Origin: Halobacterium jilantaiense
Lineage (GTDB): Archaea > Halobacteriota > Halobacteria > Halobacteriales > Halobacteriaceae
Assembly: GCF_900110535.1 (NCBI RefSeq)
Contig: NZ_FOJA01000001.1
Location: 1,178,001 to 1,242,000 of the forward strand
Direction: 5' to 3'
DNA: 64,000 nt
Positions within the stretch are counted from its first letter, which is position 1; the number at the start of each line of letters is the position of its first letter. Below the pieces are notes generated by a model. The model worked only from the letters and a program-made list of their open reading frames with translations, was not told the DNA's origin and ran no database searches. The position numbers and the translations under genes are program-made. Below are positions 30,143-41,169 of the stretch, in pieces.

Positions 30143-31045
30143 CTACTTGTACTCGCCGCGTTCGAACGCCTCGACTGCGGCCCGGTACCCCTCCTGGAAC
30201 GTCGGGTACGCGAACTCGTAGCCCAGGTCGCGGAGCCGCTCGTTCGAGCAGCGCTTGCTCGTGCGGACGCGGCGTTCGGCGGGCGTCGACAGGTCGCCGG
30301 CCGCGATGCGTTCGTCGACGGTCTGCTTCTCGGGGTGGTCGACGCCGCACTCGTCCGCGAGCCAGTCCGCGAACGCCCACTTGTCGACGGGTTCGTCGTC
30401 GACGGCCAGCAACACCTCCTCGCCGTCGGCGGCGTCGTCGGTGAGCGCGAACCGAACGACGCCGGCTGCGTCGTCGCGGTGGACCATGTTCAGGTAGCCC
30501 TCGGTGACCGGGCCGTCCAGATAGCGTGTTAGCCGGTAGCGGTCGGGGCCGTACAGACCGGCGAACCGGACCACGGTCGGGTCCATCCCGAACTCGGGGG
30601 CCTCCTCGCGGGCGACGCGCTCCGCTTCGACCAGTACTTCGGTCTTCTCGGTGGTCGGGTCGAGTGGCGTCGACTCGTCCACCCAGCCGCCGTCGTGGTC
30701 GCCGTAGACGCCGGTACTCGACGTGTAGACGAACTTCTCGGGCGCGTCGTCGCGACCCCCAAACTGCTCGACGGCCGTCCGCAGGCCGTCGACGTACACC
30801 TCGCGAGCGGCGTCGGCACCCCGGCCGCCAGAGGACGCCGCGAACACGACGGCGTCGACGTCCGGCACCGCTTCGAGCGACCCGGCGTCGGTCACGTCGG
30901 CTTCGACGGCGTCGGCACCCGTCTCGCGGACCGCCGCGAGCCCGTCTGCGGACCGCCGGACGCCGACGGCGCTGTGCCCCGCCGACGCGAGCTGTCGGGC
31001 GAGTTCGATACCGACGTAGCCACAGCCCAGAACGGCGACGTCCAT
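30143..31045 (-). CDS. NAD(P)-dependent epimerase/extended SDR protein (YeeZ-like)
   Basis: The product is 300 aa. VAVLGCGYVGIELARQL is the dinucleotide-binding loop (GxGxxG). VYTSSTGVYGDHDGGWVDE shows the SST and YGD features of atypical SDRs; the Tyr of YxxxK is less clear. TVVRFAGLYGPDRY and YLNMVHRDDAAGVVRFAL are the epimerase C-terminal motifs. It is similar to YeeZ/TDP-sugar-related epimerases. ATG overlaps the next upstream gene by ATGA. Confidence 0.82.
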   Translation of the reverse strand: MDVAVLGCGYVGIELARQLASAGHSAVGVRRSADGLAAVRETGADAVEADVTDAGSLEAVPDVDAVVFAASSGGRGADAAREVYVDGLRTAVEQFGGRDDAPEKFVYTSSTGVYGDHDGGWVDESTPLDPTTEKTEVLVEAERVAREEAPEFGMDPTVVRFAGLYGPDRYRLTRYLDGPVTEGYLNMVHRDDAAGVVRFALTDDAADGEEVLLAVDDEPVDKWAFADWLADECGVDHPEKQTVDERIAAGDLSTPAERRVRTSKRCSNERLRDLGYEFAYPTFQEGYRAAVEAFERGEYK

Positions 31046-31476
31046 CAGTAGGGGTTCTCCGCGGCGACGTAGCGGTGGATGCGAGCGTACTCCGCGAGCG
31101 TCATCGGCTGGCGGCCCTCCAGTTTCTGCTGGAGTTCCTTCGCGTCGTAGTCGTCGTCGAGCCCGCTAGCCAGCGCCTCCACGTCCATCACGGCCGAACT
31201 CATCTGGAGCATCAGGTGGTCTTGGACCTCCAGCAGCAGGTCGTCGGCCGCCGGGTAGTCGTCGCTCGTGCCGAGGATGCCGGCCGCCTCCTCGACGGTC
31301 AGTTCCGGCGACTCGCCCGCGGCGAGCGCGTCGAGCACGTCGCTGTCGACGCCCGACTCGGCCGCGACAGCGTCGATGTCCCCGGCTTCGACGACGGCCG
31401 CGAGGGTCGCCTCGTAGTCCGCGTGAACCGCCTCGTCTGTGGTCTCCTCGGGGTCCGCAATGGCTTCGGTGAACAC
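31045..31476 (-). CDS. Haloarchaeal DUF5791-like acidic protein
   Basis: The product is 143 aa if GTG 31476 (MFTEAIADPEETT) is used; a TTG at 31503 would give 152 aa. It is acidic and alpha-helical (DALAAGESPELTVEEAAGIL). It looks like the haloarchaeal family I recall as DUF5791. No enzyme motif. It overlaps the SDR gene start, so translation is probably coupled. Confidence 0.6.
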   Translation of the reverse strand: MFTEAIADPEETTDEAVHADYEATLAAVVEAGDIDAVAAESGVDSDVLDALAAGESPELTVEEAAGILGTSDDYPAADDLLLEVQDHLMLQMSSAVMDVEALASGLDDDYDAKELQQKLEGRQPMTLAEYARIHRYVAAENPY

Positions 31477-31514
31477 GCCAGTTCGTACGCACTCGGGGGT
31501 CAAGGAGGCTGCGT

Positions 31515-34463
31515 TTACCAGCCGGGCGACCGCTCGTCCTGTCCGCCAGAGGTGTCGCCGACGCCCCGGGGGCCGGGCGGCACCACCACACCGACGGTCG
31601 CCTCGACCGCGAACGACACGCGCTCGTTCGAGCCCACTGAGTCGGGTCGTCCGTCACCGTTCACGTCGAACGCGACCGGCTCGTCGCGACGGACGTACGC
31701 CACACCCTCCGGAGCCACCGGCGTCCCGGCCTCGGCTCGAACGGTGAACTCGGCCCACGACCCGCGGAGTTCGACCGTCCACGCGTTCGCCGTCGCGTAC
31801 CACGACCCCGGCACGGGCGCGAGCGGCAGTCCGGCCGGGAGCGCGCCCATGTCCGGAACGCCGGCGCGCCGCGCCGCCTCCGCCGCGAGCGCGCTGCTCG
31901 TCGCGTCCACGGCTTCGACTGCCGCGGCCTCCACGACCGCGTGCGCGGCCCGAGTCGTCTCCCGCACCAGTCCGGACTCGACTTCGACGCGGCCCTTCGA
32001 AGCCACGTCCGCCGCGTTCGCCCGCAGCCTCGCGTCCAGCCGGTCGCGAGCCCGCGGCCCCGCGTCAGCGACCTCGGCCGCCGCCGCGGCGACCGCCTCG
32101 GCCGCCGACCCGTTCGCGATTGCGGTCGCCGCCCCCGCGAGTGTCGGCCAGCGCGCGAGCGCCGCCTCGACCGCTCGCTTGCGCTCCTCTGGGTCGAAGT
32201 CGACGGGGGAGGACGACAGCACGCCGCCGTAAGCCACTCGTGCGTCGTCGACGCCCCCGGCGACCGCGTCCCGGAGCCGGGCGCGATGTTCGGCGAGCGT
32301 GTCGTTCTCGCCGGTGTCGAGCGCGCTGTCGGCCGCCCGGAGCGCCTGACCCGCCCGACCGAGGCCGACGCGGTCTGGTGGGTCCGGGAGCGCGGCCGAC
32401 ACGACGGCCTCGGCGACAGCGCCGTGGGGCGCGGTGAACCAGTTGCGGTTCCGCGCCGTGAGCGGGTGGTAGGCGTCGTCCACGTCGGCCGTCGCCGGCG
32501 TCACCTCGCCGAGCGTGAGGTACGGCGGCGTCCCCTCGACCGCAGCCACTGGTCCGGCCTCGGCGGCGTCGGCACGACCCGCCGGCGGTCGCTGGACGCC
32601 GCGGTCGCCCAGTTCCTCGCCGACCGCAGCGACGCCGCCGCCGACTCCCTGCTCGCGGAGCGCGACGACGACGCGCGCGAGGTACGCCTCCTCCGCGGCG
32701 GCAACGGCCCGTGCCGTCGCTGTGTCGTACTCGTCGCCGACCTCGCGGAGCGCCCAGACGCGGTCGACGAGGTCCGCAGTCGCCCCGTCGCCCGACGCGA
32801 GGGCACGCGTCGACAGTTCCACTGTGACGTTCCGGGCATCGTCGCGGAGCGAAGCGACGGCGTCGGCCGCACGCTCCCGGACTGGCGCTGGAACTGCCGG
32901 TCGGACGACCGCTCGCTTCTCGACGACCTCGCCGGCGACGGCGCGGCGCGCGATTGCGTCTGCACCGCCGTCGCTCCGGAGCAACCGCCGGACGGAAGCG
33001 GCCGCGTACCGCTCTCGAAGCGCCGGCCCGACGCTTCGGACGGGGGCGTCGAGGACGGCGTCTCGCTCGGTAGACAGCCGGTCGCGGACCGGCGGGTCGG
33101 CCTCGTAGCCGACCCCGATTGTCACCCGGTGCGTGGTTCGGGTCGTCTCGGTGACGGTCCGCGTGTTCGTCCCGTTCCGGTACCGCCGGGTCGTGGCCTC
33201 CGTGGTGACGACCCGTCTCCCGGTCCGTTCGGCCCGACGCCCCGCCACGTCGACGCGCCCGGCCGGCGTCGCCGACACGCTCCGCTCGGTCGTCGTGTCT
33301 GTGCGAACCAGCCGCCAGTCGTCGGGGATGGAGCCGCGGCTGGTCGTGGTTCGGTCGACGCGCTCGACGGCGACCGAGCGGTCAGCGAACCCGACGAGCG
33401 CGTCCGCGAGCGTGCCGCCGAGTCCGCGCCCGGCTGCCCCGTCCACGAACCCGACGAACGCGCGGTCGGCGGTGGCGTTCACCGAGATGGGGACGGCCCG
33501 GTCCGCCTGTTCTGCCGCCGCCTCGACCGCTGCGAAGCCGACATCGGTAGCCGTACCGCTCTGTCCGCGCTCTTCGAGGACGGCCCCCGCCCGCGACTTC
33601 GCAGTGCGCTTGCCCGCCGCGAGTACGTCTCGGAGCCCCGTCTCGGCGAACGCCCGAGCGTAGGCGTCGCTACCGGCGTCGTCGAGGCGGCCGAACGCCG
33701 CGCGCTGCTGGTCGAGGAGCGCGCGGTTCGCGGCGAGCGCGACGTGCCGATTCGCGAGCACGTTCCCGATTGGTGCGCCGGCGTACTGGAGTGGCCCCCG
33801 GAGCCACACCACTCGGTGCAGGAGGTCGGTGAGCCGGCGGTCCAGCCCCGGACCGTCGAGCGCGCCGCGGTCGAGCAGGCGCTCGAATCGCTGCGCGCGG
33901 TCGTGGAGGGTCAGCGTCGGGCTGTGAACGCGAACCGAGGCGGTCCGCTCGCGGCGGTCGAGCGTGCGGCCGCCGCGTTCGACGGCCGTCTCGACGCCGG
34001 CGACGCGCACCTCGACGACCGAGTCGTTCACGCGCTCGACGGTCGTTCGCTCGATGGCCGCCGCAGCGTCGGCCGTCGACTGGACTCGCGGGAGCGACGC
34101 CGACGCGGTCGCGCTGCCGGCGGACGCGTCGACGGTCCGGAGGGCGCGCTCGAACCGAGCGTACACGCGGAGCGCGAGGGCGTCCCGGAACGCCGTCTCG
34201 GGGTCGAGGGCGTCGCCGTAGCGACTGTCCGCCGGCGACACCACTGGGTTCTCGGCGGCGTTCCGGAGCGCGGTTCTGGCTGTGCCCGCGAGCGCGGCGT
34301 CGACGCTCGTCTCCGCGCGGTCGATGGCGCGGTCGCCACGGGTGCGGTCGGGTGCCGGGTCGTGGCCGGCGAGGACGGCGGCGGCGCTCGCGCTCGCGAC
34401 GAGCAACACGACACCGACGAGCGCGAACGGGACGCGCGCCCGCTCGTCTTCGGCGAGCCTCAC
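31515..34463 (-). CDS. Large anchored surface protein of the pilus-like cluster (DUF7286-like)
   Basis: The product is 982 aa. One hydrophobic helix (VPFALVGVVLLVASASAAAVLAG) near residues 10-32 would anchor it with the bulk outside. The ectodomain is Ala-, Arg- and Asp-rich with little similarity to known folds. Near the C-terminus FDVNGDGRPDSVGSN (~residues 929-943) has the DxNxDGxxD pattern of calcium loops. GTG 34463 overlaps the previous stop (GTGA). It is the last of four surface genes read from the promoter at 35777. It fits the haloarchaeal family I recall as DUF7286; a pilus tip or adhesin role is inference. Confidence 0.7.
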   Translation of the reverse strand: MRLAEDERARVPFALVGVVLLVASASAAAVLAGHDPAPDRTRGDRAIDRAETSVDAALAGTARTALRNAAENPVVSPADSRYGDALDPETAFRDALALRVYARFERALRTVDASAGSATASASLPRVQSTADAAAAIERTTVERVNDSVVEVRVAGVETAVERGGRTLDRRERTASVRVHSPTLTLHDRAQRFERLLDRGALDGPGLDRRLTDLLHRVVWLRGPLQYAGAPIGNVLANRHVALAANRALLDQQRAAFGRLDDAGSDAYARAFAETGLRDVLAAGKRTAKSRAGAVLEERGQSGTATDVGFAAVEAAAEQADRAVPISVNATADRAFVGFVDGAAGRGLGGTLADALVGFADRSVAVERVDRTTTSRGSIPDDWRLVRTDTTTERSVSATPAGRVDVAGRRAERTGRRVVTTEATTRRYRNGTNTRTVTETTRTTHRVTIGVGYEADPPVRDRLSTERDAVLDAPVRSVGPALRERYAAASVRRLLRSDGGADAIARRAVAGEVVEKRAVVRPAVPAPVRERAADAVASLRDDARNVTVELSTRALASGDGATADLVDRVWALREVGDEYDTATARAVAAAEEAYLARVVVALREQGVGGGVAAVGEELGDRGVQRPPAGRADAAEAGPVAAVEGTPPYLTLGEVTPATADVDDAYHPLTARNRNWFTAPHGAVAEAVVSAALPDPPDRVGLGRAGQALRAADSALDTGENDTLAEHRARLRDAVAGGVDDARVAYGGVLSSSPVDFDPEERKRAVEAALARWPTLAGAATAIANGSAAEAVAAAAAEVADAGPRARDRLDARLRANAADVASKGRVEVESGLVRETTRAAHAVVEAAAVEAVDATSSALAAEAARRAGVPDMGALPAGLPLAPVPGSWYATANAWTVELRGSWAEFTVRAEAGTPVAPEGVAYVRRDEPVAFDVNGDGRPDSVGSNERVSFAVEATVGVVVPPGPRGVGDTSGGQDERSPGW

Positions 34464-34912
34464 GCCGACCACGTCCGGACGGTGACCGCGACAGTCGTCT
34501 CGTTCGCCGGCACCTCGTGGGTCGTCGCGGCGACCGAGGCGTCTGGCGGCGGTCGCGGGCCAACGCGCAGCGACTCCCGACCGACTGTCGCGACCAGTTC
34601 GACCCGACTGCCGGCTGTCGCGGCGACCTCGCCAGTCGCGTCGACGACGGCCGCGACGAACTCCGGCTGCTCGTCCCGGTCGGCAGCGACGGTGGCGTGC
34701 GCGAGCAGCGTCGACACTCGACCCGAGGCGGCCCGTTCGTCGGCCGGGCCGTAGTCGACCGTGACCGTGCTCGCGAGCACGGTCCGGGCGGCCGCGTCGG
34801 GATCGGGTGGGTCAGGGCCGTCTGCAGGAATCGTGACGAGGGCGACGGCGGCCGCGCTCACGAGCAGTATCGCCAGCGAAACGTCGACGACGGTGCTGAC
34901 GGCGCGGGTCAC
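34460..34912 (-). CDS. Pilin-like secreted protein (DUF7285-like)
   Basis: The product is 150 aa. The N-terminus MTRAVSTVVDVSLAILLVSA resembles an archaeal class III (prepilin) signal: basic residue, Ala, small/Val/Ser, then a long hydrophobic helix; PibD-type cleavage after the Arg-Ala region is possible. The mature part is beta-rich, with no cysteine. GTG 34912 overlaps the previous stop (GTGA). It is probably a minor pilin of the cluster. Confidence 0.65.
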   Translation of the reverse strand: MTRAVSTVVDVSLAILLVSAAAVALVTIPADGPDPPDPDAAARTVLASTVTVDYGPADERAASGRVSTLLAHATVAADRDEQPEFVAAVVDATGEVAATAGSRVELVATVGRESLRVGPRPPPDASVAATTHEVPANETTVAVTVRTWSA

Positions 34913-35304
34913 TGCCACACCGCCACGGTCAGTCGGCCGGGAGCCACCTCGCCGGGCGCGACTCGCACCGGCACGCGCCGGGACGCAGACGCAGCCTCTG
35001 GCGGCGGAGCGTCGGCACCCGTATTCCACGAGCGATTATCAGCCGTAAGCCGGACGCTGGCCTGGTAGCCGGCCGGCGCAACCGTTCCCGAGAGCGCCGA
35101 CGGCGACACGACCACGCTCCCCTCTGTCGTCGCGGCGTCGACGGCGTCGTCGAGGACCTGTCCGGCCGGGGCCGACGCTCCCGGTCCAGGTAGAACACCA
35201 GCGCTAACGCTGCCGTACGCGACGAGCGCCAGACAGAGCGCGAGCACCGCGACGACGGCCGCCACGGGCTCGACCTGCGCCCTACGCGCCGACCAGCGTG
35301 ACAT
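34909..35304 (-). CDS. Pilin-like secreted protein (DUF7284-like)
   Basis: The product is 131 aa. MSRWSARRAQVEPVAAVVAV begins with a basic RRAQVEP motif just before a hydrophobic helix (VAAVVAVLALCLALVAYGSV), the haloarchaeal prepilin-like pattern (Arg-Ala-Gln-Val-Glu-Pro). Glu at +5 of the hydrophobic core is typical of type IV pilins. A Gly/Pro/Ala linker and a beta-rich end follow. ATG 35304 lies within the end of the preceding gene (23-bp overlap). Confidence 0.65.
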   Translation of the reverse strand: MSRWSARRAQVEPVAAVVAVLALCLALVAYGSVSAGVLPGPGASAPAGQVLDDAVDAATTEGSVVVSPSALSGTVAPAGYQASVRLTADNRSWNTGADAPPPEAASASRRVPVRVAPGEVAPGRLTVAVWQ

Positions 35305-35752
35305 CCACACCCCTCCAGGTGACGCGGCGGACGGTCAGACGCGCCGGGTCGTCTCGCCAGCGGTGCTCGCGGGCAGTCGCGTCGTCGGCGGCACTCCGGA
35401 GCGCCGACGGGTCCGCGAAGCGGTCGTCGGGCGGCGTCCCGTGGAGGACGGCCCAGAGTCGGGTGTCCTCGCGGACTGGCACGACCAGACCGTAGGCGAA
35501 CTGGGCGTGTGCGGTGCCGGCGTCGCTCCGCACGGCGACCTCGTTCGGGGTGAGTCGGAGCGCCTCGGCGGCGACCTCGCGCGTCTCCACACCGGCGGTG
35601 TCGGCGGCCGCGACGGCGTCGACGGTGCCGGCGAGCGGGGCCGCCCGGGGTGGCGGTGTGGGGCTCGCGGCGAACGCGACGCCGGCGAGCGCGGTACTCA
35701 CGAGAGACAGCGCGACCAGGACCGGTGGCGTGTCGGCGGGCGTGTCGAACAC
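35282..35752 (-). CDS. Signal-peptide-bearing protein of the pilus-like cluster (DUF7283-like)
   Basis: The product is 156 aa. It has an N-terminal hydrophobic segment (VLVALSLVSTALAGVAFAA) typical of a Sec signal or anchor. The mature part has REDTRLWAVLHGTPPDDRF and a C-terminal RRVTWRGVDVTLVGA. GTG 35752 is chosen because a good TATA box (35777-35786) lies 29 bp upstream, giving a leaderless mRNA. First gene of the surface-protein unit. Confidence 0.65.
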   Translation of the reverse strand: MFDTPADTPPVLVALSLVSTALAGVAFAASPTPPPRAAPLAGTVDAVAAADTAGVETREVAAEALRLTPNEVAVRSDAGTAHAQFAYGLVVPVREDTRLWAVLHGTPPDDRFADPSALRSAADDATAREHRWRDDPARLTVRRVTWRGVDVTLVGA

Positions 35753-35776
35753 GCCGCGAGGTGGTCCCGGCCTCCG

Positions 35777-35786
35777 GTTTAAATCT
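35777..35786 (-). promoter_or_regulatory. Internal TATA box for the four surface genes
   Basis: The minus strand reads AGATTTAAAC, 29 bp before GTG 35752. It overlaps the stop codon of the TadC-like gene (35785-35787). The surface genes can thus be expressed apart from the ATPase/membrane genes. Confidence 0.65.
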
Positions 35787-37368
35787 AGAGGAGGGTGCCG
35801 GCAGCGACGGCCGTCACGGGGTAGACGACCGCGGCGCAGGCGACGGCGACGCCCGCGTGGTAGCCGACGAGCGCGCGGTCGAGGCCGCGCTCCAGGGCGA
35901 CCGCGAGCGTCGGCAGAAGGACGGCGAGCCAGAGGACGTAGCCGCCGACGGCGAGCGCGAGCGCGGACTGCGGGAGCGCGCTGGCACCGTCCAGCCCCCG
36001 GACGCGGCCCGCGAGCGCGACCGTCACGCCGGCGACCAGCGGCGCGTAGACGAGCGCCGTATGGCGGAGCGTGCGCGTCGTCGCGGCGAACTCCCGTCGG
36101 ACCTCCCGATCGAGGGCAGTGAGGTCGTCGAACAAGCCGGCGACGTCGACGAGCACGCGACCCCCGGCTGCGCCGCTCTCGGCGGCACGGACGGAGAGTG
36201 CGACGGCAGCCCGGGCGCGCTCGCTGGCCGTTCGCGCGAGCGGCCCGTGGTCCCCGAGGAAGGCCGCTTCGACGCCGACGCGGAGCTGTCGCATCCGGCG
36301 CGCCGCGTCCGCGAACGCCGCCCCGGTGGGGCCGTCGAGGGTGTCGCCGACGTCCGCGACGGCGGCTTCGACGGCCTGCCGCTCGCGGAGCCGGTGGCCG
36401 AGCAGGGAGAGCGCGTCGGCGAACCCGGCTTCGAGGTCGCGGGCGCGCTCCCGGAGTTCGCAGGCCGGCCGGAACCACGCGGCGAGCGCGAACCCCATCG
36501 GCCAGCCGGCGAGCAGCAGCGGCGTCGCCCAGCCCGGGAGCAGCAGGCTGGCGACGACGGCGGCCGCGAGCCCGCCGACCGCGGCGAGTGCGGTCGCTCG
36601 GGTGCGGCCCGCGAGTTCGGGGTGGTCGTCCGGTACGGGTGCCGGTGGAAAGGCGACCGGGCGACGCGCGAGCAGCCAGATGGCCGCACCGACCACGCCC
36701 AGCGGGAGCACGAGGTCGTAGCCGAGGACGAACGCCCCGACGGTCAGCGGGACGCCGGCGCTCGCGGCGGCCGGGACGACGCCGACGAGCGCGAGCGGCA
36801 ACACGACGCCGAACGCGTAGACGGCCGTCGTGGGCCCGCGGACGGCATCAGCGTACTCGCTGGTGCGCTCGCGGGTGCCGTCGACGACGGCCGCGAGCGC
36901 GCGGTCGAGCAGCCGCTCCCGGTCACCGTCCGGCGCGTCGACGCCGGCTGCGGCGAGCGCCGCCGCTCGCCGGAGCGACGGCAGGTGGTCGCTCCAGGTG
37001 TCGGCGAACGCCGCGAAGCCGGCCGCTGGCTCGCCGCGGGCCGCCCGGACGTGGGCGGCGAGGCTGTCCGCGAGTCGGCCGCGGCCCGCGTCGGCGGCGA
37101 ACGCGCTCGCGGACTCGACTGCCGGCGAGACGCGGAGCCCGAGGACGACGAGCGCCACGAGGTCGGGGGCGGCACCGAGGCTCCGCGAGCGCCGCGCGAC
37201 CTCGCGGAGCCGGGGACCGTAGCGGACCGCGAGCGCGCCGGCGAGGCCGGTCACGCCGAGTCCGGCGGCGACGTACGGAGCGAGCGGCGAGGCGACGGCC
37301 GTGAGGAGGAGCGCGGTGCCGCCGACTCCGGCGGCCAGCCAGTCGCCGGACTCCCTGCTGTCGGTCAT
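35785..37368 (-). CDS. TadC/GspF-like type II secretion (type IV pilus) membrane protein
   Basis: The product is 527 aa with two GspF-type halves (SLGAAPDLVALVVLGLRVSPAVE; DLEAGFADALSLLGHRLRERQAV), each followed by paired hydrophobic helices. This platform protein couples the ATPase to filament assembly. ATG overlaps the stop of the ATPase gene (ATGA), so stoichiometry is probably coupled. It is longer than single-domain PilC, as in archaeal TadC/ArlJ relatives. Confidence 0.82.
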   Translation of the reverse strand: MTDSRESGDWLAAGVGGTALLLTAVASPLAPYVAAGLGVTGLAGALAVRYGPRLREVARRSRSLGAAPDLVALVVLGLRVSPAVESASAFAADAGRGRLADSLAAHVRAARGEPAAGFAAFADTWSDHLPSLRRAAALAAAGVDAPDGDRERLLDRALAAVVDGTRERTSEYADAVRGPTTAVYAFGVVLPLALVGVVPAAASAGVPLTVGAFVLGYDLVLPLGVVGAAIWLLARRPVAFPPAPVPDDHPELAGRTRATALAAVGGLAAAVVASLLLPGWATPLLLAGWPMGFALAAWFRPACELRERARDLEAGFADALSLLGHRLRERQAVEAAVADVGDTLDGPTGAAFADAARRMRQLRVGVEAAFLGDHGPLARTASERARAAVALSVRAAESGAAGGRVLVDVAGLFDDLTALDREVRREFAATTRTLRHTALVYAPLVAGVTVALAGRVRGLDGASALPQSALALAVGGYVLWLAVLLPTLAVALERGLDRALVGYHAGVAVACAAVVYPVTAVAAGTLL

Positions 37369-39158
37369 CGGAACGCGCTCGCTCGCCCCTCGATTGCCGC
37401 CCGCACGTCGCTGTACGTCTCGCCGGGGCGAGCGAGCGCGTCGACGGCGTGGCTGTTCCCGCGGGCAATTCTGCCCGTGGGATTCGCACCGTCGCCGTCG
37501 TCGCCGAACAGGGCGGCGTCGCCGTCGTCGGTGACCTCCTCGATTCGGACGACGCGTCGCCCGGCCTCGGTCTCGGCGCAGGTGACGACGAGGTCCGTGG
37601 CGGCGAACGACGACCGGTCGACGCCGAGGTCGGCGACCACGCGCTCCCGGACCCCGGCGGCCTCCTCGCCGTGAATGGTGCCGAGAACCGTCGCGTCACT
37701 GGCTCCGACGCGCATCGCCTCGTAGAGGACGCCCGCCTCCTCGCCGCGGACCTCGCCGACCGCGACCGCGCCGTCCCCGAGCCGGAGTGCCGTGCGGAGC
37801 GCGTCCGGCATCGAGATAGCCGCGCCCGCGGTGTCGTCGCCGGCGTAGAGCGCCTGGACGTCGCGGTCGTCGGCGCGGAGCGCGCGCACCGGGAGTTCGG
37901 GCGTGTCCTCGATGGTGACGAGCCGGGTGTCCCGGGCGAGCGACCAGAGGGTCGCGCCGAGGAGCGTGGTCTTCCCCGCCCCCCTCGCGCCGGCGAACAG
38001 CACGGCTGCGCCCCGAGAGACTGCTTCTGCGAGAAATCCCGCGGCGTCGGCGTCGAGCGTGTCGTTCGCGACGAGGTCGGGGAGGCGGAACGGGTCGGCG
38101 TCGTGGGCGCGGAACGCGAACCCGGTGCCGTCGCTCACCGGGTCGGTGACGCCGGCGACGCGCACCCGGCCGGCCCGCCCGAGGTCGTCGACCGTCGCGT
38201 CCAGCGTGGGGCTGGCTCTGGAGAACGGCCGGCCAGTCGCCGCGCGCAGTCGGGACGCGAGCCGCGCAGCGCCCCGGTCGGTGAACTGGACGTTCGTCCG
38301 CACCGACTCGCCGTCGACGGACGCGCGGAGCACACCCTCGTCGACGGGTGCCGACGCGAACACGTCGCTCACCCCGGGGTCGGCGAACAGGTCTTCGAGG
38401 ACGCCGAAGCCACGCGTGTGCTTCCGGAGCGCGTCCGCCAGCCGCTCCCGGTGCTCGCCCGCGGCCTGCCTGACGGCTCGCCCCGGTGCGTCCTCGCCGT
38501 CCCGAACGGACCCGTCCGCGAGTCGCTCGCGGGCGTCGGCGAGGAGCCGCCAGTCGTCGCGGTCGAGGTCGTACTCCGGCGGGAGCACGTGGTAGACCGG
38601 GACACCGTCCGGAACTTCGTAGACGCGGACGGCCGCTCCAGTGTCGAGGTCGCGGGCCTCGCGCAGTCGGCTCTGCCGAGGCGGGGTGGGGCCGACGCGG
38701 GCGTCGGCGAGCGACGGCCCGAGGTGCGCGAGCAGGGCGTCGTACTCCGGCACGTCGGCGGCGACGGCTCCGAACCCGGTCTCGGCGGCGACGTCCGAAA
38801 CGGGGCCGGCTCGACCAGTGGCCTCGGTCGCGGCGGCGAGCGGGTCGCGGCGCGCGCGAGCCGAGAGGCGGTCGTCCCGGTCGGCGACCCTCGCGGCGAA
38901 CCGGCCCGCTGCGGTGAACAGCGCGGCCGCTCGTTCGCCGAACGCCCGCTCGAATCCCCCCGCATCGACGACGATGCGGTTCGGGGCGTGGCGTCGCGCG
39001 GCGGTGGCGACCGTCTCGCGGCACGCCGGCTGGTCGGTGAGCGCGCCGCCGCCGGGGCACGCCGTGGCGTCGAGGCGGAGCGTCCCCGCGTCGACGCCGG
39101 GCTCACAGCCGCAGTCCGGGTCGGGCGTCGCTCGGACGCGGTCCAGTAGTGCACGCAT
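37365..39158 (-). CDS. VirB11/TadA-type secretion ATPase
   Basis: The product is 597 aa. The C-terminal P-loop ATPase domain has Walker A GARGAGKTTLL (~residues 388-398), VTIEDTPELP (Asp box), GEVRGEEAG (Walker B) and GTIHGEEAAGV (His box). It powers assembly of a type IV pilus-like filament or secretion. The N-terminus has four Cys (C16, C18, C34, C46) that could bind zinc, unusual for the family. ATG 39158 overlaps the upstream gene by 56 bp. Confidence 0.85.
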   Translation of the reverse strand: MRALLDRVRATPDPDCGCEPGVDAGTLRLDATACPGGGALTDQPACRETVATAARRHAPNRIVVDAGGFERAFGERAAALFTAAGRFAARVADRDDRLSARARRDPLAAATEATGRAGPVSDVAAETGFGAVAADVPEYDALLAHLGPSLADARVGPTPPRQSRLREARDLDTGAAVRVYEVPDGVPVYHVLPPEYDLDRDDWRLLADARERLADGSVRDGEDAPGRAVRQAAGEHRERLADALRKHTRGFGVLEDLFADPGVSDVFASAPVDEGVLRASVDGESVRTNVQFTDRGAARLASRLRAATGRPFSRASPTLDATVDDLGRAGRVRVAGVTDPVSDGTGFAFRAHDADPFRLPDLVANDTLDADAAGFLAEAVSRGAAVLFAGARGAGKTTLLGATLWSLARDTRLVTIEDTPELPVRALRADDRDVQALYAGDDTAGAAISMPDALRTALRLGDGAVAVGEVRGEEAGVLYEAMRVGASDATVLGTIHGEEAAGVRERVVADLGVDRSSFAATDLVVTCAETEAGRRVVRIEEVTDDGDAALFGDDGDGANPTGRIARGNSHAVDALARPGETYSDVRAAIEGRASAFR

Positions 39159-39594
39159 AGGCCGCTCTGCTCCCGTCTCCCCGGATAAACCCTCGCAGCG
39201 CGACGACAACCGGCTCCCCGTCTGTCGCGATGTAGGCGAACGTCGTGTCGCCGCGCAGCGTCGTCCCATCCCCACAGACGCTGACCTCGACGGGGAGACG
39301 TTCGACCGTCTCGGCACCGTTCCCGGCCCGGGCGACCAGCCGCGGTGGTCCGCGTTCGGCCGCGAGCGTCGTGGCTTCCGGGAGTGAGACGTGGACCGTC
39401 CGTCTCGGCGCGGTCTCGATGCGGTCGCCGGGGTCGCTGTGCCGAGCGAGCGCGCGAACGGCGTCGGCGGTGTCCTCGACGGTCGCCTCGACGCTGGCGG
39501 CGGCTCGGCGCTCGCGGGCGTGGTCGACAGCGGGCGCTGCCACGGCGACGAGCGCGAGCGCGGACACCACCGCAGCCACGACGCGGACCGTCAC
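39103..39594 (-). CDS. One-TM protein upstream of the ATPase (DUF7311-like)
   Basis: The product is 163 aa. The N-terminal hydrophobic segment VVAAVVSALALVAVAAPAV anchors it. The rest is beta-rich (SLPEATTLAAERGPPRLVARAG; GDTTFAYIATDGEPVVVALRG) and has two Cys that could form a disulfide. GTG overlaps the DUF7310-like stop (GTGA). It fits the haloarchaeal family I recall as DUF7311, linked to pilus-type ATPases. Confidence 0.65.
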   Translation of the reverse strand: MTVRVVAAVVSALALVAVAAPAVDHARERRAAASVEATVEDTADAVRALARHSDPGDRIETAPRRTVHVSLPEATTLAAERGPPRLVARAGNGAETVERLPVEVSVCGDGTTLRGDTTFAYIATDGEPVVVALRGFIRGDGSRAAYACTTGPRPSDARPGLRL

Positions 39595-40016
39595 AGCGAC
39601 GACCGAAGGCGGTCCAGCAGCGACGCTGGCTTCTCGTCCGAGTCGGCTAGACGGGCGGCCGAGTCCGGCACGGCCGTCTCGTCGCCTGTCGACGGAGCGC
39701 GTTCGGGTGACGACCGGTCGGGCTCAGGTGCGTGGGCGCGAGCCTCGTCGTCCAGCCGTTCGACGGCCGCGCGAGCCGCGTCGGCGCGGCGCTCCACGCG
39801 GTCGTTCACGTGCTCGATTTCGCCGACGTAGCCGTGGAGGGACTGCACGGTCGCCTCCAGTGCGTCCACGCGCTCGGTGAGGGTGTCGAGGTCGTCGGCC
39901 AGGGCGTCGAGGTGGCGCTGGCGTTCGGCTGGGTCGGAGAGGTCGACCGCGGTGTCGCCGTCGGTCAGCGCGCGCTCGACTGCTGCCACTCGTGCTTCGA
40001 GTGAGTTGTCGGTCAC
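39591..40016 (-). CDS. Coiled-coil protein, first gene of the cluster (DUF7310-like)
   Basis: The product is 141 aa. Residues ~30-90 show heptads (DALADDLDTLTERVDALEATVQSL in two parts) typical of a coiled coil; the C-terminal ~50 residues are low complexity. GTG 40016 start. It is the promoter-proximal gene of the cluster, divergent from cetZ (79-bp gap). It may be a scaffold for the ATPase (inference). Confidence 0.65.
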   Translation of the reverse strand: MTDNSLEARVAAVERALTDGDTAVDLSDPAERQRHLDALADDLDTLTERVDALEATVQSLHGYVGEIEHVNDRVERRADAARAAVERLDDEARAHAPEPDRSSPERAPSTGDETAVPDSAARLADSDEKPASLLDRLRSSL

Positions 40017-40095: not shown

Positions 40096-41169
40096 ATGAA
40101 AGCCGCCCTCATCGGCGTGGGTCAAGCCGGTGGCAAGGTCACCGAAGCCCTCCTCGCCGAGGACCGCCGCGCCGGCTACGACGCCGTCCGTGGGACGCTC
40201 GCGGTCAACACCGCACGAACCGACCTCGACGGACTCGACATCGACACGATGCTCGTCGGGCAGGAACGGGTGAAAGGCCACGGCGTCGGCGCGGACAACG
40301 AACTCGGCGCTGAAGTGATGAACGACGACGTGCGCGAAGTCATGGGAGCTCTCGACGGTGTCGTCGACCCCCACACCGAGGCCATCTTCGTCGTGGCCGG
40401 GCTCGGCGGCGGCACTGGCTCCGGCGGCGCTCCCGTCCTCGTGAAGGAACTCCAGCGCGTCTACGAGATGCCCGTGTACGCGCTCGGTATCCTCCCCGGC
40501 CGCGACGAGGGCGGCATCTACCAGGCGAACGCCGGCCGCTCCCTGAAAACTCTGGTACGGGAGGCGGACTCCACGCTGCTCGTCGACAACGACGCCTGGC
40601 GCTCGACGGGCGAGAGCGTCACAGAGGCCTTCGACGCAATCAACGAACGCATCGCGAAACGCGTCGGCATCCTGCTCGCCGCCGGCGAGAACATCGAGGG
40701 CGTCGGCGAGAGCGTCGTCGACTCCAGCGAAGTCATCAACACCCTCCAGTCCGGGGACATGTCCGCCATCGGGTTCGCGTCCGCGGAAGCCGCCGCGGAC
40801 GCCGGCGAGAACATCAACGTCGTCACCTCCACCACGCGGAAAGCACTCCTCTCGGGGATGAGCGTCCCCGAAACCACCGAGGCGGGCGCGGCGCTCGTCG
40901 TCGCCGCCGGCGAGAACGACCGCATCCCCCGGAAGGGCGTCGAGAAAGCCCGCTCGTGGGTCGAAGAGGAGACCCGCAGCATGCAGGTCCGCGGCGGTGA
41001 CTTCCCCCTCACGTCGGACAGCATCGCGGTCCTCGTCCTGCTCTCCGGGATCGCGCGCAGCCAGCGACTTCAGGACTTCATGGACCGCGCGAAGGAAGCC
41101 AGCAAGGAAGTCGAAGCCGAACAGGAACAACAGACCTTCCAGAACGACGAACTGGACGACCTAATCTAA
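40096..41169 (+). CDS. cetZ: CetZ family tubulin/FtsZ-like GTPase
   Basis: The product is 357 aa. The tubulin signature GGGTGSG is at 104-110. The N-terminus MKAALIGVGQAGGKVTE and C-terminal acidic DDLI are CetZ-like; unlike FtsZ it lacks the AGTTPDEAR-type FtsZ tail. CetZs control cell shape and motility in Haloferax. Its divergence from a pilus-like cluster fits a shape/motility link but is not proof. ATG 40096 is set by the family start. Confidence 0.9.
   Translation: MKAALIGVGQAGGKVTEALLAEDRRAGYDAVRGTLAVNTARTDLDGLDIDTMLVGQERVKGHGVGADNELGAEVMNDDVREVMGALDGVVDPHTEAIFVVAGLGGGTGSGGAPVLVKELQRVYEMPVYALGILPGRDEGGIYQANAGRSLKTLVREADSTLLVDNDAWRSTGESVTEAFDAINERIAKRVGILLAAGENIEGVGESVVDSSEVINTLQSGDMSAIGFASAEAAADAGENINVVTSTTRKALLSGMSVPETTEAGAALVVAAGENDRIPRKGVEKARSWVEEETRSMQVRGGDFPLTSDSIAVLVLLSGIARSQRLQDFMDRAKEASKEVEAEQEQQTFQNDELDDLI

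Follow-up and report, generated by a model that had tools for sequence, protein, structure and literature searches.

Subclade 4F of the archaeal type IV pilus-like systems, as described by Makarova, Koonin and Albers in 2016, has an ATPase with a cysteine-rich N-domain and a nearby gene of the FtsZ family, and a coiled-coil cytoplasmic protein is unique to its halobacterial version (PMC4858521). A pilB2/C2 regulon beside cetZ2, together with arCOG04674 and the epimerase arCOG03095, was described by Brown and Duggin in 2023, who attributed its patchy distribution to recent acquisition or to a mobile element (PMC9856176). Legerme and Pohlschroder in 2019 placed Haloferax PilB2 in 4C, which differs from the 4F assignment. 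The window analyzed here, a stretch of 64,000 nucleotides (nt) from Halobacterium jilantaiense (NZ_FOJA01000001.1; coordinates are positions within it), has eight minus-strand open reading frames (ORFs), all confirmed present, spanning 40016 to 31515 and called genes A to H in order of transcription. The cluster is intact and an unremarkable representative of an already described pilus-like system of predicted function. It probably encodes a subclade 4F (PilB2/PilC2) type IV pilus-like machine for a thin filament or pseudopilus, with the giant DUF7286 protein, the product of gene H, as a large tip or surface subunit.

This assignment is favored by gene content, neighbors and ATPase features that match the published descriptions, and by the conserved gene order, the prepilin-type N-termini and an internal promoter. 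In common with subclade 4F there is a cysteine-rich ATPase N-domain, a TadC-type platform partner, prepilin-like subunits with N-termini of class III as judged by motif, an FtsZ-family gene nearby and a coiled-coil protein, DUF7310, which was likened by description to the 4F partner, arCOG07564. The cetZ2, pilB2/C2, arCOG04674 and arCOG03095 genes have the same arrangement as in the pilB2/C2 regulon, the cetZ2 and arCOG identities being assigned by synteny with the published loci. Where Makarova proposes stand-alone major pilins of the PilA family and an S-layer-like protein, here DUF7286 itself has a prepilin-type start. With the PilB3/PilA adhesion pili and the PilB1 pili of Haloferax the system shares general machinery and, as predicted here, processing by prepilin peptidase, whereas its subunit families are different and the remaining ATPases encoded in these genomes are placed in separate groups of the ATPase tree. 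An initial annotation had held that the locus is neither a known archaellum nor the usual pil set and may build a distinct haloarchaeal surface filament. To judge from sequence, the machine is very likely distinct from both the archaellum and the PilA/PilB3 set, and to that extent the annotation was right, but the pairing had already been described as 4F and as pilB2/C2 and is not a new set. What is new is in the detail: the prepilin-like giant subunit, a conserved internal promoter, deletion scars in relatives and unlinked co-occurrence of the parts in distant genomes.

The ATPase encoded by gene C keeps its Walker A motif (GARGAGKT at 390), and four N-domain cysteines, C16, C18, C34 and C46, are near-invariant, being present in 110–111 of 111 homologs. 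Disulphides have been suggested for the cysteines of the methanogen 4F ATPase (PMC4858521); the four considered here are taken rather as a putative metal site. The best named families, TadA, FlaI and TrbB, are all far below their cut-offs, and the solved relatives are the archaeal secretion ATPase 2OAP, CpaF and FlaI. Neither an archaellum (FlaI-type profile, 98.5 bits against a cut-off of 550), nor a bacterial Tad system (TadA, 133.7 against 373), nor type II secretion (GspE, 28.5 against 630) is indicated by the profile scores. The identity of the gene D platform comes from a homolog of the same family that adjoins the ATPase in most of 80 haloarchaeal loci and in distant genomes.

T2SSE-type ATPases of several genomes were placed in a tree, which carries a long-branch warning and does not include the Makarova reference sequences. 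In it the window ATPase falls with the other cluster ATPases (100/99). Four distant genomes of the same phylum each contribute one cysteine-rich ATPase, with 7–9 cysteines in its N-domain, that joins this group (100/100), and the combined group stands apart from every other ATPase in the tree. These four genomes are taken to be methanogens because the control Methanosarcina acetivorans has DUF7286 and because the distribution of 4F given in PMC4858521 points the same way. All four also encode DUF7286, and homologs of DUF7285 and DUF7284 adjoin it in three of them (L091, L092 and L093). The ATPase adjoins a TadC gene and DUF7286 is located elsewhere, so motor and subunits co-occur without linkage.

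In two of the distant genomes that are Methanocella-like (L239:12956-15094 and L240:4608-6677), a HerA-like ATPase, a small TadV-like prepilin peptidase (both names given by eye) and a DUF7311-like protein (9.6e-08 in L239) are near the 4F ATPase pair, which a small prepilin-like gene adjoins in both. In two members of one genus (L196:8368-9378 and L197:2957-4336) DUF5791 forms an in-frame fusion with the cysteine-rich N-domain of PilB2, the motor domain being missing, and in a third (L198) the two parts are in neighboring frames. The fusion may be a deletion product that has been kept for use, and it could explain the VirB11-type annotation of arCOG04674.

The prepilin test applied to homolog N-termini, [RKDE][GA] ahead of a hydrophobic stretch of 16 residues, gave a class III-like motif in 120 of 130 homologs of gene F (DUF7285), 110 of 132 of gene G (DUF7284) and 132 of 137 of gene H. 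As 48 of 112 gene B homologs also pass, the test alone is permissive, and the case for F, G and H is made because fixed motifs add to it: R[GA]/Q[VT]EP in F, R[GA]/[VI]ST in G and [DE]R[GA]/RVPFALVG in H. For gene E (DUF7283) the scan is positive in 96 of 126 homologs but the form is unusual. Three subunits, DUF7285, DUF7284 and DUF7286, thus look like prepilins, where the initial annotation had counted two. The same annotation had considered the giant protein as possible export cargo. It is probably a pilin-like subunit instead of separate cargo because its own N-terminus is pilin-like. That N-terminus is among the most conserved stretches of DUF7286 and reads as a class III leader and H-domain; the protein also has a conserved C-terminal ending, VVVPPGxxGVGDxxG...GW. 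Position +5 is alanine, not glutamate, in 54 of 56 homologs. Tip subunits such as GspK likewise generally lack this glutamate. GspK, a type II secretion minor pseudopilin, is a large capping subunit, and the likeness is by analogy only, as the sequence and fold searches with DUF7286 gave no match to it. One gene of the prepilin peptidase family is present elsewhere in the genome.

In an AlphaFold2 model (predicted local distance difference test, pLDDT, 82.7; predicted template modeling score, pTM, 0.59) DUF7286 has an N-terminal transmembrane (TM) helix at 13–33, several alpha/beta and helical domains, and a mostly beta C-terminal domain. A Foldseek search with it against solved structures gave no match at E ≤ 0.001, and a profile search against solved structures gave no significant match. 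A likeness of residues 360–512 to the SecB chaperone (VIA-align Z about 6, root mean square deviation 2.3 over 92 residues) was not used, as Z below 8 may reflect a common arrangement. The DUF7285 model (pLDDT 85) is a TM helix with a small alpha/beta head; it too gave no fold match at E ≤ 0.001, and a likeness to ribosomal protein domains (best VIA Z about 7) was judged to be chance. In two related haloarchaeal metagenome-assembled genomes (L116:8971-12462 and L166:8119-12450) DUF7286 and DUF5791 form one open frame with no stop between them, which is hard to reconcile with DUF7286 being external and DUF5791 being cytoplasmic. Broken-looking DUF7286 genes occur in L089 (G219), where the last part is about 7.5 kb away from the rest, and in L013, where one TAG interrupts the frame.

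The subunit half of the cluster has its own conserved promoter. In 94 of 125 loci a TATA-like hexamer precedes the start of the DUF7283 alignment by 33–34 nt, which puts it at about −30 relative to the start codon. When the whole 70 nt region upstream is counted, 101 of the 125 loci have one, against 4.8 expected by shuffling; genes F, G and H almost never do. The spacing suggests a leaderless transcript. Base counts across loci reveal an element, GSGRCCA, 3′ of the TATA box at about −15 to −9; no regulon with this element was seen in the genome, the pattern having 3 matches against 7 for its reversed control. Between TATA box and DUF7283 start (35750–35775), inverted repeats of at least 4 bases around a CCA core are present in 61 of 117 loci, against about 31 by shuffling, with no single fixed center among species.

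Of 242 genomes in the class, 187 have DUF7286; DUF7310, counted separately, is above its cut-off in 187 of the 242 as well. Locus profiles derived from the window together with 40 loci, most of them from separate genera, were applied to 80 further named loci, which were chosen by DUF7286 similarity and so are informative on order, not prevalence. The initial annotation had proposed examining gene order across haloarchaea: the order CetZ'-A-B-C-D-E-F-G-H-I-J is exact in 40 of the 80, and a further 21 have A-J without CetZ within the fetched stretch, several of the remainder being cut by contig ends. The clustering is therefore not chance. DUF5791 is a neighbor in 74 of these loci, the epimerase in 73, and CetZ is beside the cluster in 47. 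The nearest of the loci is that of a Halobacterium, with 72% identity in gene H. For each gene the ratio of nonsynonymous to synonymous substitution rates, computed against two relatives, is 0.16–0.50, a sign of purifying selection acting on a window copy that looks intact. The operon is present in most haloarchaeal species sampled and its homologous parts reach methanogens, yet the literature search found neither an assigned function nor a deletion phenotype for it, and one on guessed Haloferax locus tags near cetZ2 found no pilus-related paper.

Directly established are the gene set and order, the ATPase core, the TadC-like platform, the prepilin-type N-termini, the internal promoter and the peptidase gene, and with these parts the machine would work as follows. 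Prepilin peptidase would remove the short leaders of the subunits, and PilB2 and PilC2 would extract these from the membrane and assemble them as a thin filament or pseudopilus. DUF7286, with its alanine at +5, would act as a scaffold or adhesin, located either at the tip or at the S-layer. Positioning or regulation of the cytoplasmic motor may be aided by DUF7310 and perhaps also by CetZ2. Several points weigh against this. A filament from this system is predicted from genes alone, and the tip role of DUF7286 is putative, argued by analogy and from the size of the protein and its lack of Glu5. No solved pilin resembles the models of DUF7285 and DUF7286, though failure to find a match is weak evidence, and the subunit genes of the distant genomes are not adjacent to the ATPase. 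Within the operon, to which the look for one was confined, there is no major pilin of the PilA type (arCOG02981).

This last point, together with the small number of subunits and the resemblance in plan of a giant non-Glu5 DUF7286 to a capping pseudopilin, would also fit a type II secretion-like apparatus in which a short pseudopilus of DUF7284, DUF7285 and DUF7286 pushes other secreted proteins through the S-layer and no external pilus is made. That is unlikely, as the operon has no conserved cargo gene beyond the epimerase and DUF5791, and the GspE score of the ATPase is so far below its cut-off. Less probable again is that DUF7286 is an independent, Sec-exported and membrane-anchored protein of S-layer type that merely shares an operon with pilus genes. 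Its length, the glycosylation sequons at several columns in 30–50% of homologs and the S-layer-like protein noted with 4F systems (Makarova 2016, PMC4858521) would suit such a role, but its leader-like N-terminus is highly conserved and it accompanies the cysteine-rich ATPase into the distant genomes, for the most part beside DUF7285 and DUF7284. It is very improbable that the whole is a new system with no relation to the archaeal pili described so far, along the lines of the distinct filament suggested by the initial annotation: the literature search found no paper naming the six small families, DUF7310, DUF7311, DUF7283, DUF7285, DUF7284 and DUF7286, all Pfam families of unknown function, yet the descriptions of 4F and pilB2/C2 in the literature fit the gene content, the neighbors and the features of the ATPase, and the published synteny contradicts such a reading. 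Within the 4F assignment, it is a tentative and rather doubtful proposal that DUF7286 represents a new class of giant minor pilin of about 1000–1400 residues, at the tip or crossing the S-layer, with a multi-domain fold unmatched among solved structures, assembled by PilB2/PilC2, positioned by CetZ2 and common to haloarchaea and methanogens.

Features of the pilB2/C2-type locus and its neighbors in the window (aa, amino acids; a slash marks the predicted prepilin-type junction)
Feature	Position	Strand	Evidence and remarks
CetZ tubulin-like gene, divergent neighbor	40096..41169	+	CetZ_C 211 bits, Tubulin 102 bits; cetZ2 by published synteny
Gene A, DUF7310, 141 aa coiled-coil	39591..40016	-	Pfam PF23991, 94.6 bits vs cut-off 40, 5e-27; no TM segment
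Gene B, DUF7311, 163 aa	39103..39594	-	Pfam PF23993, 79.1 bits vs cut-off 27, 7e-22; one N-terminal TM helix
Gene C, PilB2-type VirB11/T2SSE secretion ATPase, 597 aa	37365..39158	-	PF00437, 7e-20; Cys pattern; tree
Gene D, PilC2/TadC-like membrane platform, 527 aa	35785..37368	-	T2SSF sub-threshold (0.005); about 8 TM segments
Internal promoter, 35 bp between D and E	35750..35784	-	TTTAAA about 30 nt before DUF7283 start codon; GGGACCA at about -15 to -9
Gene E, DUF7283, 155 aa	35282..35749	-	PF23954, 149 bits, 9e-44; one N-terminal TM; prepilin-like motif ambiguous
Gene F, DUF7285, 131 aa	34909..35304	-	PF23956, 99 bits, 3e-28; prepilin-like RRA/QVEPVAAVVAVLAL
Gene G, DUF7284, 150 aa	34460..34912	-	PF23955, 45.7 bits, 1e-11; prepilin-like TRA/VSTVVDVSLAILL
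Gene H, DUF7286, 982 aa giant prepilin-like surface protein (predicted)	31515..34463	-	PF23957, 850 bits, 4e-255; DERA/RVPFALVGVVLLV
Gene I, DUF5791, 152 aa, operon neighbor	31045..31503	-	PF19104, 157.5 bits; matches place of published arCOG04674
Gene J, NAD-dependent sugar epimerase/dehydratase, 300 aa, operon neighbor	30143..31045	-	PF01370; matches place of published arCOG03095

In transcription order A/B overlap by 4 bp, B/C by 56 bp and C/D by 4 bp; the single gap, of 35 bp, is between D and E, and E/F overlap by 23 bp, F/G by 4 bp and G/H by 4 bp. An eight-gene cluster overlapping except at an internal promoter, as initially annotated, is thus borne out by the ORFs, their spacing and the conserved TATA-like hexamer. 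The initially annotated stretch stops at 31515, but the operon runs on into DUF5791 after 11 bp and into the epimerase gene, which overlaps DUF5791 by 1 bp. Gene G covers positions 1–159 of the 278 in the PF23955 profile and is about half the usual DUF7284 family length.

Absence of the system in some relatives is loss, as shown by deletion scars in four genomes, three of the window's genus (L080, L081 and L181) and one of another family (L082). What is left at the scars is CetZ, DUF7310 (truncated in L080), a 3′ piece of DUF7286, and then DUF5791 and the epimerase gene. Compared with intact relatives each has one deletion, of about 7.7, 6.9, 7.3 and 8.4 kb, and the breakpoints differ. In contrast to the reading of Brown and Duggin, this in-place loss speaks against the patchy pattern being only recent acquisition, at least in these lineages. 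CetZ is within about 250 bp of DUF5791 in eight other genomes that lack DUF7286 and within about 1.2 kb in two more, and in these ten the system may have been lost or may never have been present. The prepilin-like giant, the internal promoter and the in-place loss point to concrete tests in Haloferax volcanii, with natural knock-outs for comparison. One scar (L080:9839-10777) contains an open frame of 313 codons in which the beginning of DUF7310 continues, in frame, into the C-terminal quarter of DUF7286.

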